64,000 nt of DNA from Prorocentrum cordatum (taxonomy: Eukaryota; Sar; Dinophyceae; Prorocentrales; Prorocentraceae): positions 1-64,000 of the forward strand of contig CAUYUJ010016064.1 in NCBI GenBank assembly GCA_963575745.1. Direction: 5' to 3'. The first letter of the stretch is position 1, and each line of letters opens with the position of its first letter. A model generated the notes under the pieces. The model was not told where the DNA came from. It did not search any database and worked only from the letters and a program-made list of their open reading frames with translations. Positions 362 to 60,344 of this stretch are shown piece after piece. The position numbers and the translations under genes are program-made.

Positions 362-2848
362 TCAGTCAGCCTCGCCGCGGCGCGCCGTCGCCGACTCAGA
401 GGGCGCCCCCCCCTCGTCAAGCACGCGCGCGAGCTCTGCCGACAGACCGTCGCCATCCTCGACGTCGATCGTTTCACCGTGGGCCGAGGCGGCAATGGAA
501 GCGAAGATCGCCCTCTGCTCATCGGCATCCACGGGTGACAACGGACCGCCGCAGCCCATCATGAGCCCCCTCGCCCTCTTCACTGGCAGAGGCGAGGACA
601 AGTCCTCGAACGCACCGTGGTGCGCCTTGGCGAGGCTCTTGAAAATCGCGAGCTGCTCGCCCTGGTCCTCCTAGGTGAGCTCGCCGCAACGCCCAGCGAT
701 GTTGGGCTGCGCGGAGCTGGCGGCGCGCGAGCTGTCTTCTGGCGGTTCGCCCCTTCCGCCGCCGAAGCCGAACGCGGCCTCCTCCTGGGACAACTCGGTT
801 GGCGGCTGGGGAAACGCCGAAGCGGCCGCGGCGGCTGGCGGAGCGCTGGCCGCGCCTGGATCGAACCCTGAAACGTTGCCGACAGCGGAGACAACGCGCG
901 CAGGGCCATCGCCGAAGATAGGAGCAACATGGACAGTCGCAATAGTGGGCACGTCAAGGCCCGCGACCACATTGCTCATGCACCCAATCGACCAAGCCAT
1001 CTTTTCGGCGTAGTCTGAGGGGAGCGGGCGGATGGCTGGCGACGTCGTGTCCCGCACTTCGCTGACGAAGAGGTCGGGGCTCCTGGGGTTGGGCCACGGC
1101 ATGAACTCTGCACCATCCTGCAGGTTGGCGGATGCCACGCGCCAATGCACGCCGAGGTCCGTCACCACGATCACGTGCGCCCTGGCGAGGACGGCGTGGA
1201 AGTCCTCCTCTGTCCTGACATCCCCCAGAGACGGCGCGATGATACGCTTGAGCAGGTCGAGGCCGTACTCGTTTAGCGTCGCGGCGTCCAGCGCCGCCTT
1301 CTCCGCGTCGCGGTCGTAGGGGTTCGCGACGGCCTGTCTGCACGGCCCTTGCTCGAAAGCGCAGCCGCCCCACCGAGCCCACAGCAGAGCGTGCTCTCCC
1401 TTGGGGTTCAAGAAAGCCTTGAGCACATCAGCGGATACCTTCAAGCGGCCAAGCATTCGCCCGATCACCAACGCCACCGCGACTTCCACTTGGGAAGGCG
1501 ATGCGGCGGGAAGAACCGCAGTCTCCCTGGAAGCCGCGGGCGGCAATTGCGCGGGCCACGCCAGGCCGCCGAACCTTCTGAAGCAGGCCGTCGTCGAAAA
1601 TGCCAGGGAGGATCTCCGTCGTTGGCTCGCACCTGAAGAAATCCACGTGCTTCACCGTCAGGAAAGCGATCTCATCGGCGGCGCCCTTCTTCTGTATGCT
1701 GCGCGCCGAATGAACCCAAGCAAGCGTTTTCGAACCGTTGCTCTTGCCAACTCTGGACTTCCCGACCCACGGCACCCCGTGCATGCGGAGTGTGCCAATC
1801 ATCAGGCGGAGGACGCCATTGAGGAACCAGCCAGAGAAGCCCTTTAGCGTCAAACTCCAGCGCGAGATCGGTTTGGCATTCGTCCTGCCCCTCTGGCAGT
1901 TGCGCAGCGCAGTCTCCACCTTGGACGCAGGCCATCCGAATATCTTCGAACCCTCCCTGCTGACCTCTGTGCCAACCCATTCCATGAACTGGTTCCTGTT
2001 ATTGCTGCGGGGATGCGGATGAACGTGTAATCCTGCGCGCGCTCGTCCTCCTCTAGCGGCTGCTTCCGCTCGCGCTGCGGCTCGATCGTGAAGCACCTTG
2101 CGGTGGAGGCGCTGGATAGGCATACATTCGGCGAGAAGCCCAGGGGGGCCCGATCGCTGGGTCGCCACAGACAGGGCGCTCAACTCGTTTTGAAACACGG
2201 GGTGGGGGGAAATGCGCCTGAGCTGGGGCGGGCAGGAGGGGGGTCCTTATCCGAGCGCGCCCACCGTATTTGATAGCCCTCGAGCTTCCCCAGCATGAAC
2301 TGGAACGCAATCGACCCCGTCCGAAAGTTTTGGCCGTAGTCGATGTTGTGGGCCTCTCCGCGAGCACACTTGAGGATGGTCGCAGAATCGGCTCTGTTTT
2401 TCTCGAAAGAAAAGACCTTGAGGATGCGGTATGCCGAACACTCGCTGTCCTCTGGCTTCTGGCGAACGATGAAGATCTGCATCGTGCACGGGACGACGGG
2501 CTCCTGCTTGAGCGACAGCGGCTCCTGCAAGTCCTTGAACTTACCCTGTGCGTACAACTCGTGCACCTTGTCGAAGTCAATCGGGCCCTCGTAGTTGGAT
2601 ACCACGTCGGCGAAAGCGACCAACTTCGCGGCACTCGAATTCGCGATCGGTAGCAGAGGAAGGTCGAAGATAGAAAGGCCACCAGCGAAAGCCAACCTGC
2701 CTTTCTTGACGCACTTCGAGGGGTGGTAGTCTAACTTGCTACCGCTGACCATCAACGACGCCTCCTCAAAGGCGAGCTCGCCGCCCCCCTCGGCGTCGCA
2801 CGCAACCTGCCCCAGCGACTGCACCTGGTCAGCAGGGGCGCTCGCCAT
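362..2848 (-). pseudogene. P-loop NTPase-like protein of a dinoflagellate multicopy family, broken (unit A)
   Basis: Read on the minus strand from the ATG at 2848. The middle part carries a Walker A motif, GVPWVGKS (GxxxxGKS), at about 1,760-1,785. This is followed by a stretch ending in FDDG that could be a Walker B region, then a C-terminal part with the phrases VANPYD and WPNPRSPDL. From memory, this order (GKS/T, FFR-E-P, FDDG, NPYD, WPNPR-PDL) recurs in many unnamed dinoflagellate proteins; I know of no assigned function. The frame is not intact. There is a TGA at 2180-2182 where unit B has Trp, and a TAG at 671-673 where unit B has Lys. Frame changes near 2,035 and 1,570 are shared by both units. 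The shared breaks could be introns with unusual borders; the private stops look like decay. A mobile-element replication protein is possible but unproven. Confidence 0.5.
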
Positions 2849-3111
2849 GATCCGCGGCGAGAGAAAGGCGGGTCGGGCGGTGGCCTCGGATGACGGGCAA
2901 CAGCGCGCAAGCGTTGATCACAGACGGCAGCGGATGCCAGCTGAGCACCTGGGGAGGGAGCGACGACGACGAACGATGCACACTGAAGATGGAAGTAAGA
3001 AGTAAGAGGGCGTGGGCACGACGACGATGAGTCAAAGATGCGGCACGGCTGCGGCGGGGGCAATCAACGCGACGTCAATCACGCGCACTCGGGAACACAT
3101 GCGCGCTGTAT

Positions 3112-3175: not shown

Positions 3176-4409
3176 AGCACGCCGCGCCCGCGACCTCCCA
3201 GATGGCATCCGCGGTGGCCGCCCACATATCCTCGCCCTTGTTCCAGCACTCGAACTGGACCGAGCGAACCGAAGCCGCGAGACGCCTGCTGCCTGGGAGG
3301 TCCGCGCGCGTGCCAATGAGGGTTTTGAAAAACCTCCAGGCGCGGTCGATGATCTGCGCCCCTGCCTTTACCCTGATCTTGGAGACGCCGGGCAACTTGC
3401 GGGTGACAACCTTCGAGTAGACTGGCCTCAACCAAGCCCACTTCCTGTCGATCTTCTTCCGCTTCTCGCAGTGCACGACGTGGTCGCGCACGAGCCCCGA
3501 CGCGCGCATCTTGTAGCTGCGGGCCCCGTCAGAGCGCAAGATGACCTCACTGTTCTCTAAGCGGCTTTTTAGGGACGGCGCCCAATCCATATTCTTGATG
3601 GCGCCTAAGCCTGGCGCGTTGGCCTCGGCGCCGCCTGACTGGGTCTTCCACAGAACGAGGCCATCAGGGCGCCCGCGCTCGACGACGCCCGCCCACTGTT
3701 CCCACGTCCTGGAACGACCGTCGTCGGACAGCTGGGCGCGGAAGACCGACTCATCCGCCTCCACGTCGAACCAGCGCCGCTGGGCTTCGTCGCCGAAGAC
3801 AACGTTGGGTTCGTTCTTTTCCACGTAGATCTCCCACACGGTTGCCGCGGCCGCGCTCATGCCCTCGATCATCTTGCGGTTGGCACCTGCCAGCAAGTGC
3901 ATCTGGGCGGTGGTCACGCCGAGCGCGAGGCAGGAGAGGACCTCGGCCTTCGTCGACAAACTCGACGATTGGCAACCCCCGCCAGACTTGAAGACGGGGC
4001 GGGCGGTGCACGGGTCGACGGTCTTGCCGCGCAGCCTACCGCCGTTGCATCGCCAATGCGGGCCGCGATTGTCACCCTGCACCCGCGCGCCGCAGGTTCC
4101 CACGCCGCAGTGAGGGCAGGCGCGGCCTTCCCAGTCAAGCAGGACGCCATCCTCGAGGAGCAGGTCTACCATCTGGTCCGCAGTTTCCCCGTGAAAGCTG
4201 TCGTAGTTGCGGCGCCAGGTTTCGCGCTCCCTGCGGGATTTCACGGTCCTCTTCCCGTGGCGCACGTACTCGACCTTCTCCGCTTGCTTCCTGCGCTGGC
4301 CCATCCTGTCCTCGCCCCTCTTGCGCAAGGGGAGCGGCCTGAAAGCACTCGCCGGCCGCTTCTTCGGCGCGGAGGCGGCAGCAGGGCGTTTGATAGCACG
4401 CTTTCCCAT
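3174..4409 (-). CDS. ISXO2-like (IS1595/Merlin-type) DDE transposase, intact in unit A
   Basis: A 411-residue protein from the ATG at 4409. The upstream in-frame stretch has no ATG, so this start is the best choice. Residues 1-65 are rich in Lys and Arg and could act in nuclear import or DNA binding. A zinc-ribbon-like part follows, with Cys98, Cys101, Cys106, Cys121 and Cys134. The catalytic half shows VEADES (Asp219), then TWEQWAGVVERG, then SDGARSY (Asp294), and a C-terminal region with IIDRAWRFFK; the third acidic residue could be Asp355 or Glu387. In the IS1595 family this fold cuts and joins transposon ends. No terminal inverted repeats were found, so this may be a resident gene rather than a mobile copy. 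Unit B has a nonsense change at Lys281. A DinoSL-like string lies about 50 bp upstream of the ATG. Confidence 0.7.
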   Translation of the reverse strand: MGKRAIKRPAAASAPKKRPASAFRPLPLRKRGEDRMGQRRKQAEKVEYVRHGKRTVKSRRERETWRRNYDSFHGETADQMVDLLLEDGVLLDWEGRACPHCGVGTCGARVQGDNRGPHWRCNGGRLRGKTVDPCTARPVFKSGGGCQSSSLSTKAEVLSCLALGVTTAQMHLLAGANRKMIEGMSAAAATVWEIYVEKNEPNVVFGDEAQRRWFDVEADESVFRAQLSDDGRSRTWEQWAGVVERGRPDGLVLWKTQSGGAEANAPGLGAIKNMDWAPSLKSRLENSEVILRSDGARSYKMRASGLVRDHVVHCEKRKKIDRKWAWLRPVYSKVVTRKLPGVSKIRVKAGAQIIDRAWRFFKTLIGTRADLPGSRRLAASVRSVQFECWNKGEDMWAATADAIWEVAGAAC

Positions 4410-25560: not shown

Positions 25561-26479
25561 AAAGCCCCCCAAAAAACAGTGCAAGCAAGGCGTGGAACCA
25601 AGAGAAACAACAATACCATATGCTAGCACAGCGAAGAACAATGAAAAGCAGATACACCGATGATTGCACATCAAAAGCCAATGAATCCGTGATGTGTCCT
25701 TATTGTTTCGTATGGTTGTTTCCTTGTTTGTCATTGCTTGGCATTGCTTTCCTTGTTGTTCCGCGCCTGTGGGCACCAAACTATTGGCCGACGGTGAGAT
25801 GGGGAGGTCACCTGCGCAGAAAGCATTCCATGTGGAAGGCAACCAACCGAAGGGTTGGAACGAGGGAGGGGAGCTTCACTTCGAACACAAATTCGACCAG
25901 TTTCTTCTCTGGCTGATTTACTACGTTGGGGAAACGAACAGAAGCCCCACCAGAGGGGAGGAGGAAGGAGAGGGCATGGGAGGGGGAGGGACGGGGAGGC
26001 GGGGAAGGTCGAAGACGGAGGGGGAGGAGAGGGAGGAGGGGAGGGGAGGGGAAGCTACTGACGGAGGCGTCCTGGGGCGCCGACCGCGCCATGACGCTCG
26101 CTGGCGGCATTGCGCATGCTCGTCGGAGGAGGGATGCGGAGGAGAGGTGGGGAGGAGGGCTTCGAAGCCAGAGCACGTCCGCTGCTGAAGGCGCGACTCC
26201 GGTCTCGGGCCAGGGCAGGGGGTGTGCCCACTCAGATATACATTCCGGTGTGAGCATACATGATCCAGGGTCGAGGGTTCCCACGAGTCCCCACCCCCAG
26301 AGAACGCGCTTCTTTATTCGCGGCGATAACGGGCGTTAGCAAGCGCCAGCAGGCTACAGCTATCGTGGACCGCAGCAGCTCAACAGGCTGGGGGATGAGA
26401 ACCCGCACAGCCGCCTCAACAGAGTGAGGCTGTCAGGGAGAAGCAGGAGCGTTGGGAATAGACAGTTGGGGCTTCTGCC
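25561..26479. other. Spacer left of the retrogene, nothing recognised
   Basis: It includes a G-rich GGGAGGGG stretch (about 25,960-26,055). An open frame of 164 codons on the plus strand starts with a hydrophobic stretch but has no family match and no homologous constraint that I can judge. Confidence 0.4.
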
Positions 26480-26928
26480 TATTCGTCATCCTCCGTCGTT
26501 TTTTTGTTTTCTTCCTCGTGTCTTCTCCCTGTTATCAATCAACATGGTTTGGGCAACGCTGTCGCGGGCCGAGCTTCCTGCTCACGCGCGAGACTGGGCG
26601 AGAGCCTCTAACCCACCAGCCCGACAACGAGCTTTACAGCACAACAACAAAACTGTCCCGAGTGACCGCTCCACGCAAAACAGTTGCCTGCACGTCCTCA
26701 TGGCCAATCAACCGAGCTCGACTAACGCCCCAGCTTGGTTAGCGCCAAGGCGCGCATCTCCTGCTGAAGGATGTTTGGAGAAAAATGAAGTGCAGGTGAC
26801 GATGTCCCACTGACATATAAGTTTGGGTTCTAGAGGGTGCGGTTCCACCTCCGGTTCTGGTTGCACAGGTTGTGTAACTTAGACCGCTTCGACATGCGGC
26901 AGCACCAGGCTTTCGAGTGTTCATCGTC

Positions 26929-27624
26929 TCACTGCGATGCCAAAGGAGGCTTGTATGCCGCATCCCAGGCAACGCCCTTCGAAATTACAGCCGCTGCTGG
27001 CTTTGAGCCGACCAGGAGGAGCATCAGGGTCGTGACACCAGAGAGGAACACAACAAGTGGAACAAGTAATGGCGAAATGTTTGTCAAGTCCGTGTGAAAG
27101 TCCGAGGCCTTGGCGCATTTGTAGACGATTGCCCAAAACAGATAGAATATGATAGCGAAATTGACCTGACAGGGAATTTCGACCATGTTATTAAACTTGC
27201 CATATAAGCCATAGCATACCGGGTAGAGGTATCGCATAACCACGTAGATCCACCCGAGCACTGCAGAAGTGCTGGGATTTACGAACAACGCATGCAACCA
27301 CAGCACCAGGAAGAACGGGATACATTGCTCTATCGTATTGATGACACCGCGGTCAGCAATGTTGAGGGCAGTCTGCTTCTGACTCTCATCCATCTCTGCG
27401 AACTTGAACGCAATCTGGTTGCCCAAGAACGTGTACCACATGACGATCCAACCCAAAGTCACGCCGACTACCCCATATAAGTCTTCAGGACCAGGAAACC
27501 CATTCACGGCCCCACCTGGGCCAACACCGATCAGTGCGCCACCAACCAGGACAGTTGAGATGAGCAAGCAAACTGGGAGCACCGACACCGTGAAGTTTTC
27601 ATCACCCCAAGGGTACTTGGCCAT
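26929..27624 (-). CDS. MAPEG-family membrane protein (retrogene)
   Basis: A 231-residue protein from the ATG at 27624, the first ATG in this frame; the open frame extends further upstream without one. Hydrophobic segments lie at about 12-35, 49-73, 101-117, 122-140, 154-170 and 185-206, more than the usual four of the family, so some may not span the membrane. The family mark is RGVINTIE: Arg92, Asn96 and Glu99 in the RxxxNxxE spacing, followed by a Pro and the strongly hydrophobic FFLVLWLHALFV. MAPEG proteins use glutathione as substrate or cofactor in membranes of the endoplasmic reticulum. The frame has no introns or stops, in keeping with its origin from a spliced mRNA. With no promoter carried along, expression depends on local transcription. 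Confidence 0.7.
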   Translation of the reverse strand: MAKYPWGDENFTVSVLPVCLLISTVLVGGALIGVGPGGAVNGFPGPEDLYGVVGVTLGWIVMWYTFLGNQIAFKFAEMDESQKQTALNIADRGVINTIEQCIPFFLVLWLHALFVNPSTSAVLGWIYVVMRYLYPVCYGLYGKFNNMVEIPCQVNFAIIFYLFWAIVYKCAKASDFHTDLTNISPLLVPLVVFLSGVTTLMLLLVGSKPAAAVISKGVAWDAAYKPPLASQ

Positions 27625-27700
27625 ACTGCTTGCTCGTGGGTGTAGCTTTGCGAAGACCCCGCGGGATACCGCTTCAGGCACAGCGACGTGTGCAAGATGG

Positions 27701-27722
27701 CTTGAGCCGAAATGGCTACGGC
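27701..27722 (-). other. Relict dinoflagellate spliced leader
   Basis: Read on the minus strand it begins GCCGTAGCCATTTCGG and ends CTCAAG. It matches the 22-nt DinoSL (first base A, G or T) at all but one position, where T is replaced by C. One base separates it from the target-site duplication. It marks the 5' end of the source mRNA. Confidence 0.9.
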
Positions 27723-27759
27723 ATATTCGTCATCCTCCGTCGTGAGCAGCTTGCGCGGC

Positions 27760-59340: not shown

Positions 59341-60303
59341 AGGAAAGCGATGAAAGCCCCCCAAAAACAGTGCAAGCAACGCGTAGAACCAAGAGAAGCA
59401 GTAATACCATATGCTAGCACAGCGAAGAACAATGAAAAACAGATAAACCTATGATTGCACATCAAAAACCCATGAATCCGTGATGTGTCCTTATTGTTTC
59501 GTGTGGTTTCCTTGTTTGTCAGTGCTTGGCATTGCTTTCCTTGTTGTTCCGCGCCTGTGGGCACCAAGCTATTGGCCGACGGTGAGATGGGGAGGTCACC
59601 TGCGCAGAAAGCATTCCATGTGGAAGGCAACCAACCGAAGGGTTGGAACGAGGGAGGGGAGCTTCGCTTCGAACACAAATTCGACCAGTTTCTTCTCTGG
59701 CTGATTTACAACGTTGGGGAAACGAACAGAAGCCCCAGCAGAGGGGAGGAGGGAGGAGAGGGCATGGGAGGGGTAGGGACGGGGAGGCGGGGAAGGTCGA
59801 AGACGGAGGGGGAGGAGAGGGAGGAGGGGAGGGGAGCGGAAGCTGCTGACGGAGGCGTCCTGGGGCGCCGACCGCGCCATGACGCTCGCTGGCGACATTG
59901 CGCATGCTCGTCGGAGGAGGGATGCGGAGGAGAGGTGGGGAGGAGGGCTTCGAAGCCAGAGTGCGTCCGTTGCTGAAGGCGCGACTCCGGTCTCGGGCCA
60001 GGGCGAGGGGTGTGCCCAACTAAACTCAGATGTACATTCCGGTGTGAGCATACATGATCCAGGGTCGAGGGTTCCCACGCGTCCCCACCCCCAGAGAACG
60101 CGCTTCTTTATTCGCGGCGATAACGGGCGTTAGCAAGCGCCAGCAAGCTACAGCTATCGTGGACCGCAGCAGCTCAACAGGCTGGGGGATGAGAACCCGC
60201 ACAGCCGCCTCACCAGAGTGAGGCTGTCAGGGAGGAGCAGGAGCGTTGGGAATAGACAGTTGGGGCGTTAATCCTCCTCTTCCCCTTCCACACTTCTTCT
60301 GCC
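59341..60303. other. Spacer left of the empty target site, nothing recognised
   Basis: Matches 25,561-26,479, with 30 extra bases of pyrimidine-rich sequence near 60,269-60,298. Confidence 0.4.
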
Positions 60304-60322
60304 TATTCGTCATCCTCCGTCG
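60304..60322. other. Empty target site of the MAPEG retrogene
   Basis: A single TATTCGTCATCCTCCGTCG flanked by CTGCC and TGAGCAGC, the same outer flanks as the two copies around the insertion in unit A. Confidence 0.9.
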
Positions 60323-60344
60323 TGAGCAGCTTGCGCGGCCACCT

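Follow-up and report, generated by a model that had tools for sequence, protein, structure and literature searches.

Dinoflagellate "recycled" genes, i.e. DinoSL retrogenes, are reportedly the subject of a 2008 study by Slamovits and Keeling. In the papers on such genes, used here to the extent that their text was available, a full leader and one or more truncated relict leaders precede a processed coding sequence, and it is by the leader that these genes are recognised (PMC3229502, PMC6050394, PMC12014239). In two Symbiodinium genomes, the proportion of genes that are retrogenes is 22.3 and 23.2% according to the available part of Song et al. 2018, who treat the type of the copying element as unknown and lean towards LTR elements (PMC6050394), while Haro et al. 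2025, in the text at hand, leave the element type open (PMC12014239). In Symbiodiniaceae and Polarella, LINEs look old and LTR elements young, as described in the accessible part of PMC8045281, and this counts against the LINE-type reading that we give below. By the available sections of a study on endogenous viruses, LINE-mediated retroposition is argued for virus relics in Symbiodiniaceae (PMC10235124). Among the papers listed in full-text searches of the literature, we recognised none that reports target duplications at dinoflagellate retrogenes.

A second kind of system with similar anatomy comprises the L1-mediated mRNA copies of mammals (PMC2912911) and the L1-like copies of dicots (PMC4838847), which, in the accessible portions of these papers, have a long duplication, an A-tail, full-length mRNA and an extra base at the 5' junction, with a nick at TTTT/AA (TTAAAA). 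In human data, L1 nicks at TTTT/AA, the duplications of L1 and Alu measure about 15 bp, those of LTR elements are much shorter, and 12.4% of full-length Alu insertions have extra bases at the 5' junction (PMC2912911, available text).

Here, we describe an insert in Prorocentrum cordatum that belongs to the known dinoflagellate recycled genes. It has their full leader and truncated relict before a processed coding sequence, and adds to these a target duplication, an A-tail and an empty site. The insert also shares the long duplication, the A-tail, the full-length mRNA and the extra 5'-junction base with the L1-mediated and L1-like copies; by contrast, the nick lies at another site, the copied RNA was trans-spliced and the enzyme is one that we infer.

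Results

The window (the whole 64-kb stretch of P. cordatum DNA that was analysed) contains two related units, A and B; unit B runs past the end of the window, and the duplicated unit is visible in part only. In an A/B alignment built from 14,276 chained unique 24-mers, 27,002 columns are identical and 733 are different, i.e. the divergence is 2.6%. An earlier reading made from the sequence alone (the sequence-only reading) had described a 34.9-kb duplication; this figure describes how far A and B are offset at their left end (four pairs with an offset of 34924) but not the offset at the insert, where it is 33.8 or 32.6 kb. The divergence per kb is uneven between 22000 and 31400: it is 0.7-1.7% on the right-hand side of the insert, rises to 2.6-5.1% over the 2.5 kb on the left-hand side, and is 0.8-1.8% over a further 2 kb. 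Gene conversion between the units is a possible cause. The units differ in length by at least 25 bp at 19 places. Flanking repeats were looked for at the 13 differences of more than 80 bp, and a repeat of at least 18 bp was found at five: the insert described here and four others, whose repeats consist of GAGGAG or CAT runs or of a single unit from a tandem repeat of 385 bp, and thus of low-complexity or tandem sequence. For seven ORFs of unit A, no Pfam family was matched at E 0.01, and no Rfam family reached its gathering score within the 64-kb window. The unit A ORF at 2180-2914 (minus strand) had four protein matches, the best of which is 80% identical; the only one of the four that bears a name comes from a Pyramimonas data set, and none is labelled Prorocentrum.

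The insert is a 1,244-bp segment of unit A, placed at 26500-27743 by the A/B alignment and bordering on a 19-bp repeat. It is absent from unit B, which runs on after position 60323 without it. As the sequence-only reading had claimed, the 19-mer is exact at all three places, i.e. at 26480-26498 and 27724-27742 on either side of the insert and, as a single unoccupied copy, at 60304-60322 in unit B, where the 19-mer match and the A/B alignment identify the empty site. With up to three mismatches allowed, the 19-mer has three matches in 64 kb compared with 0.00 expected from 100 shuffles, and a chance repeat was rejected on these grounds. Read in the sense direction on the minus strand, the duplication on the leader side (27724-27742, from the 19-mer match and the A/B alignment) is followed by one extra base (27723; T in sense, A on the plus strand), the DinoSL GCCGTAGCCATTTCGGCTCAAG, a leader region of 76 nt, the ATG at 27624 and 231 codons. 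After the stop codon follow about 420 nt ending in GAAAAC (26506-26928), which by their position would be the 3' untranslated region of the copied mRNA, then seven A, and then the duplication on the A-tail side (26480-26498). The seven A at the end of the insert were noted previously and are confirmed, the plus strand reading seven T at 26499-26505; the window contains 18 A or T runs of at least seven. Because the empty site in unit B reads on through a T, one T (26499) is counted in both the tail and the target, and the duplication is 19 bp or, with this T, 20 bp. Apart from the single extra base, nothing lies between the insert and the target.

At its borders, where LTR sequence would lie, the insert starts one base before the leader and finishes in the A-tail. 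The proposal that both insertion borders are fixed at base level was borne out. A DNA transposon was rejected on anatomy because the borders carry an A-tail and a leader rather than inverted ends, and an SL RNA gene was rejected given the ORF and the relicts downstream of the leader. At a distance of 7 bp from the A-tail-side duplication, unit A is without 30 bp that are present in unit B (60267-60296; A side 26472-26480); this difference may be unrelated or may be part of the insertion event.

The ORF translated from 26929-27624 on the minus strand encodes 231 aa of the MAPEG family (PF01124, E 6e-11, 43 bits compared with a cut-off of 23.4). Thirteen proteins passed E 0.001, and eight of these were aligned with the window ORF. 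Its best relative is a P. cordatum protein (P0001) of equal length and 96% identity; because the alignment to this protein is gapless over all 231 aa, the ORF is intronless, and the alignment to a transcriptome protein named Cerati... (P0002) is likewise gapless. Together with the Pfam match, this upholds the previous description of an intronless MAPEG-like gene on the minus strand. The window copy differs from the P. cordatum protein at nine positions. Of the seven further sequences, which include partial ones, the majority agrees with the P. cordatum protein at seven of these positions and with the window copy at one, with a tie at the remaining one. Judged by these sequences, most of the change lies on the side of the window copy, as in a copy under relaxed constraint. 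The intact ORF is no proof of function because, in 4,000 trials each, it stayed open by chance after 9, 12, 15 and 20 random substitutions in 72, 64, 59 and 49% of the trials, respectively.

The full 22-nt leader at the start of the insert, found by motif search at 27701-27722 on the minus strand, has one mismatch (position 14, T to C), exactly as it had been described, and is the only DinoSL match that the window contains when up to three mismatches are allowed (0.00 expected). Thus, a genome-encoded DinoSL lies upstream of the coding sequence. The 14 nt directly behind it, CCATCTTGCACACG, align with CCATTTTGGCTCAAG in 11 of 15 letters with one gap, and we read them as a relict DinoSL without its first 7 nt (CCATCTTG-CACACG; minus strand, 27687-27700). 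Held to a fixed place, the relict score is reached at about 6e-4 of the window positions and, when the 5' UTR is shuffled, in 9 of 20,000 cases, while anywhere in the 5' UTR it is reached in 30 of 2,000 shuffles; the strength of the match thus lies in its place. A possible second relict, weak with 9 of 15 letters, follows at 27672-27686 (minus strand; background 0.0044, 266 of 20,000 shuffles), and the sum of both relict scores was reached in one of 20,000 shuffles. Published relicts follow the full leader immediately and are truncated after nt 7, where there is an AG acceptor; in Alexandrium, they are also more decayed than the full leader, as the available text has it (PMC3229502; Jaeckisch et al. 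2011). The insert has this published pattern of truncation after nt 7 behind a full leader, which is found in part of such genes.

In other sequence collections, the exact DinoSL was found in one viral contig and in two contigs binned as Dehalococcoidia. The viral contig (IMGVR_UViG_3300045993_001077 from IMG/VR; L001) is AT-rich (22% GC) and giant-virus-like, and has an ORF for a family-41 glycosyltransferase. At about 1780-2766, it contains an island of ~50% GC with the exact DinoSL at its start, an intronless ORF of 254 aa and AAAAAA at its end, as if the virus had captured a trans-spliced mRNA of a dinoflagellate. The only match of this ORF at E 0.001 is itself, and its one Pfam match is below the cut-off. 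The best flanking repeat in this contig, of 12 bp, is AT-rich and lies outside the GC-rich island, and no clear target duplication was found there. A second exact DinoSL at 2876-2913, 147 bp upstream of the first, is followed by GGCG...CGCC able to pair, as judged by eye, and might be a virus-borne spliced-leader RNA gene. The two contigs binned as Dehalococcoidia, with the exact DinoSL at 32-52 (L002; directly behind an ATC repeat) and 4334-4354 (L003), are likely misbinned eukaryotic DNA. In L002, there is no exact flanking repeat of at least 9 bp, with 31 bp only upstream of the leader; in L003, the best flanking repeat is 10 bp and is not behind an A-run.

Discussion

It is close to certain that the insert is a retroposed trans-spliced, polyadenylated mRNA. 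Taken as a whole, we are confident that the locus is best explained as a LINE-type retrocopy of a trans-spliced, polyadenylated mRNA of the MAPEG family. In this model, a LINE-type machinery would nick the plus strand after CGTCG (or CGTCGT), the nicked 3' end would prime on the poly(A) tail, and the mRNA would be copied to its extreme 5' end with the DinoSL included. The cDNA would then be joined, with one extra base added, at a second nick lying 19 to 20 bp off, and repair would double the stretch between the two nicks. The duplication, the leader, the intronless ORF, the A-tail and the empty site are read directly in the DNA, and from there we infer the order of these steps and the LINE-type enzyme. 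The long duplication of 19-20 bp and the short A-tail of seven A that abuts the target are the hallmarks of the process that the sequence-only reading had suggested, in which a trans-spliced mRNA undergoes LINE-like target-primed reverse transcription. The complete 5' end and the extra base at the 5' junction fit this process as well, and the duplication is of a length that fits human L1-type insertions. The site TTTT/AA of the L1 endonuclease is not found here. Because the primer end CGTCG/T or CGTCGT/G is unlike this site, we do not class the insertion as L1-mediated, and a LINE of other site preference, or a pre-existing nick, is indicated instead of an L1-type endonuclease. Against the LINE-type retrocopy, the tail is short, the GAAAAC that precedes it could be encoded, and the locus records a single event. 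A crude motif scan found no reverse-transcriptase motif in the open frames of more than 120 codons within the window.

Insertion by LTR elements gives a duplication of 4-6 bp, and that of 19-20 bp at this locus is outside this range. Because the duplication is long and an A-tail is present, we prefer the LINE-type machinery to an LTR (Ty1/copia-like) enzyme that copied the mRNA, with integrase or break repair inserting the cDNA. The latter is preferred for dinoflagellate retrogenes by Song et al. 2018, in the available text, on the grounds that Ty1/copia is highly expressed (PMC6050394); at this locus, however, we consider it very unlikely, with an A-tail directly on the target, only one extra border base and a duplication well beyond the much shorter ones of LTR elements (PMC2912911, accessible part). 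It is even harder to believe that a cDNA or mRNA contaminant was joined into the contig during assembly. In such a chimaera, one would not expect to find 19 bp of the target on either side of the insert and only once in the sister copy, and the window copy is derived at seven of the nine differences from the P. cordatum protein, which is unexpected for a contaminating parent mRNA.

As for the history of the gene, the source of the LINE-type retrocopy was probably already a retrogene, retroposed once or perhaps twice before, which is the simplest reading of the relict leader behind the full one. The old leader of the earlier retrogene would have provided the trans-splice acceptor and would survive as the truncated relict. 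The sequence-only reading had expected an intron-containing source gene; the relict removes this expectation because the source may already have been a retrogene, and a parent without introns would leave the main claim unharmed. A single round of retroposition would suffice if the relict stemmed from a tandem-SL gene; such genes, and such a reading, have been proposed for Fugacium (PMC6616646, available text), but decay has gone further in the relict here (11 of 15 letters, one gap) than in the leader ahead of it (21 of 22). This would be the case for an older relict and resembles what is described for Alexandrium (PMC3229502, accessible part), and we regard the single-round reading as unlikely. 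The insertion had also been called recent, based on the single leader mismatch, and placed after the unit duplication. The former is not supported because 1 of 22 dates nothing, its 95% interval extending from 0.1 to 23%. The latter is consistent with the empty site, on which it depends, while the protein clock is silent on it: seven amino acid changes on the window copy over about 520 replacement sites (assumed to be three quarters of 693) correspond to 1.35% (interval 0.5 to 2.8%) compared with an A/B divergence per branch of about 1.3% (half of 2.6%), and the insertion and the duplication are, therefore, not separable in time. This lack of separation would equally fit an insertion that is older than the unit duplication, or was segregating at that time, and that unit B lost or never carried; moreover, recombination between two 19-bp repeats in unit B leaves exactly one 19-mer and the same empty site. 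We consider this order of events rather unlikely because it needs a precise deletion of 1,244 bp in unit B besides the insertion, whereas a gain in unit A is one step.

The locus argues against LTR elements for at least one event of retroposition in dinoflagellates. The involvement of LINEs is not new in itself, having been proposed for virus relics in Symbiodiniaceae (PMC10235124, in the text available). We lean slightly towards the idea that the recycling of dinoflagellate genes may more generally be the work of target-primed machinery of the LINE type that prefers to nick at GC-rich, non-L1 sites and was active so recently that both borders and an empty site can still be read, and that the same gene may have passed through it at least twice. 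With both borders at base level, the duplication length, the tail and the nick sequence provide a direct discriminating test of the element type. Thus, the border record makes the question of which element is responsible testable.
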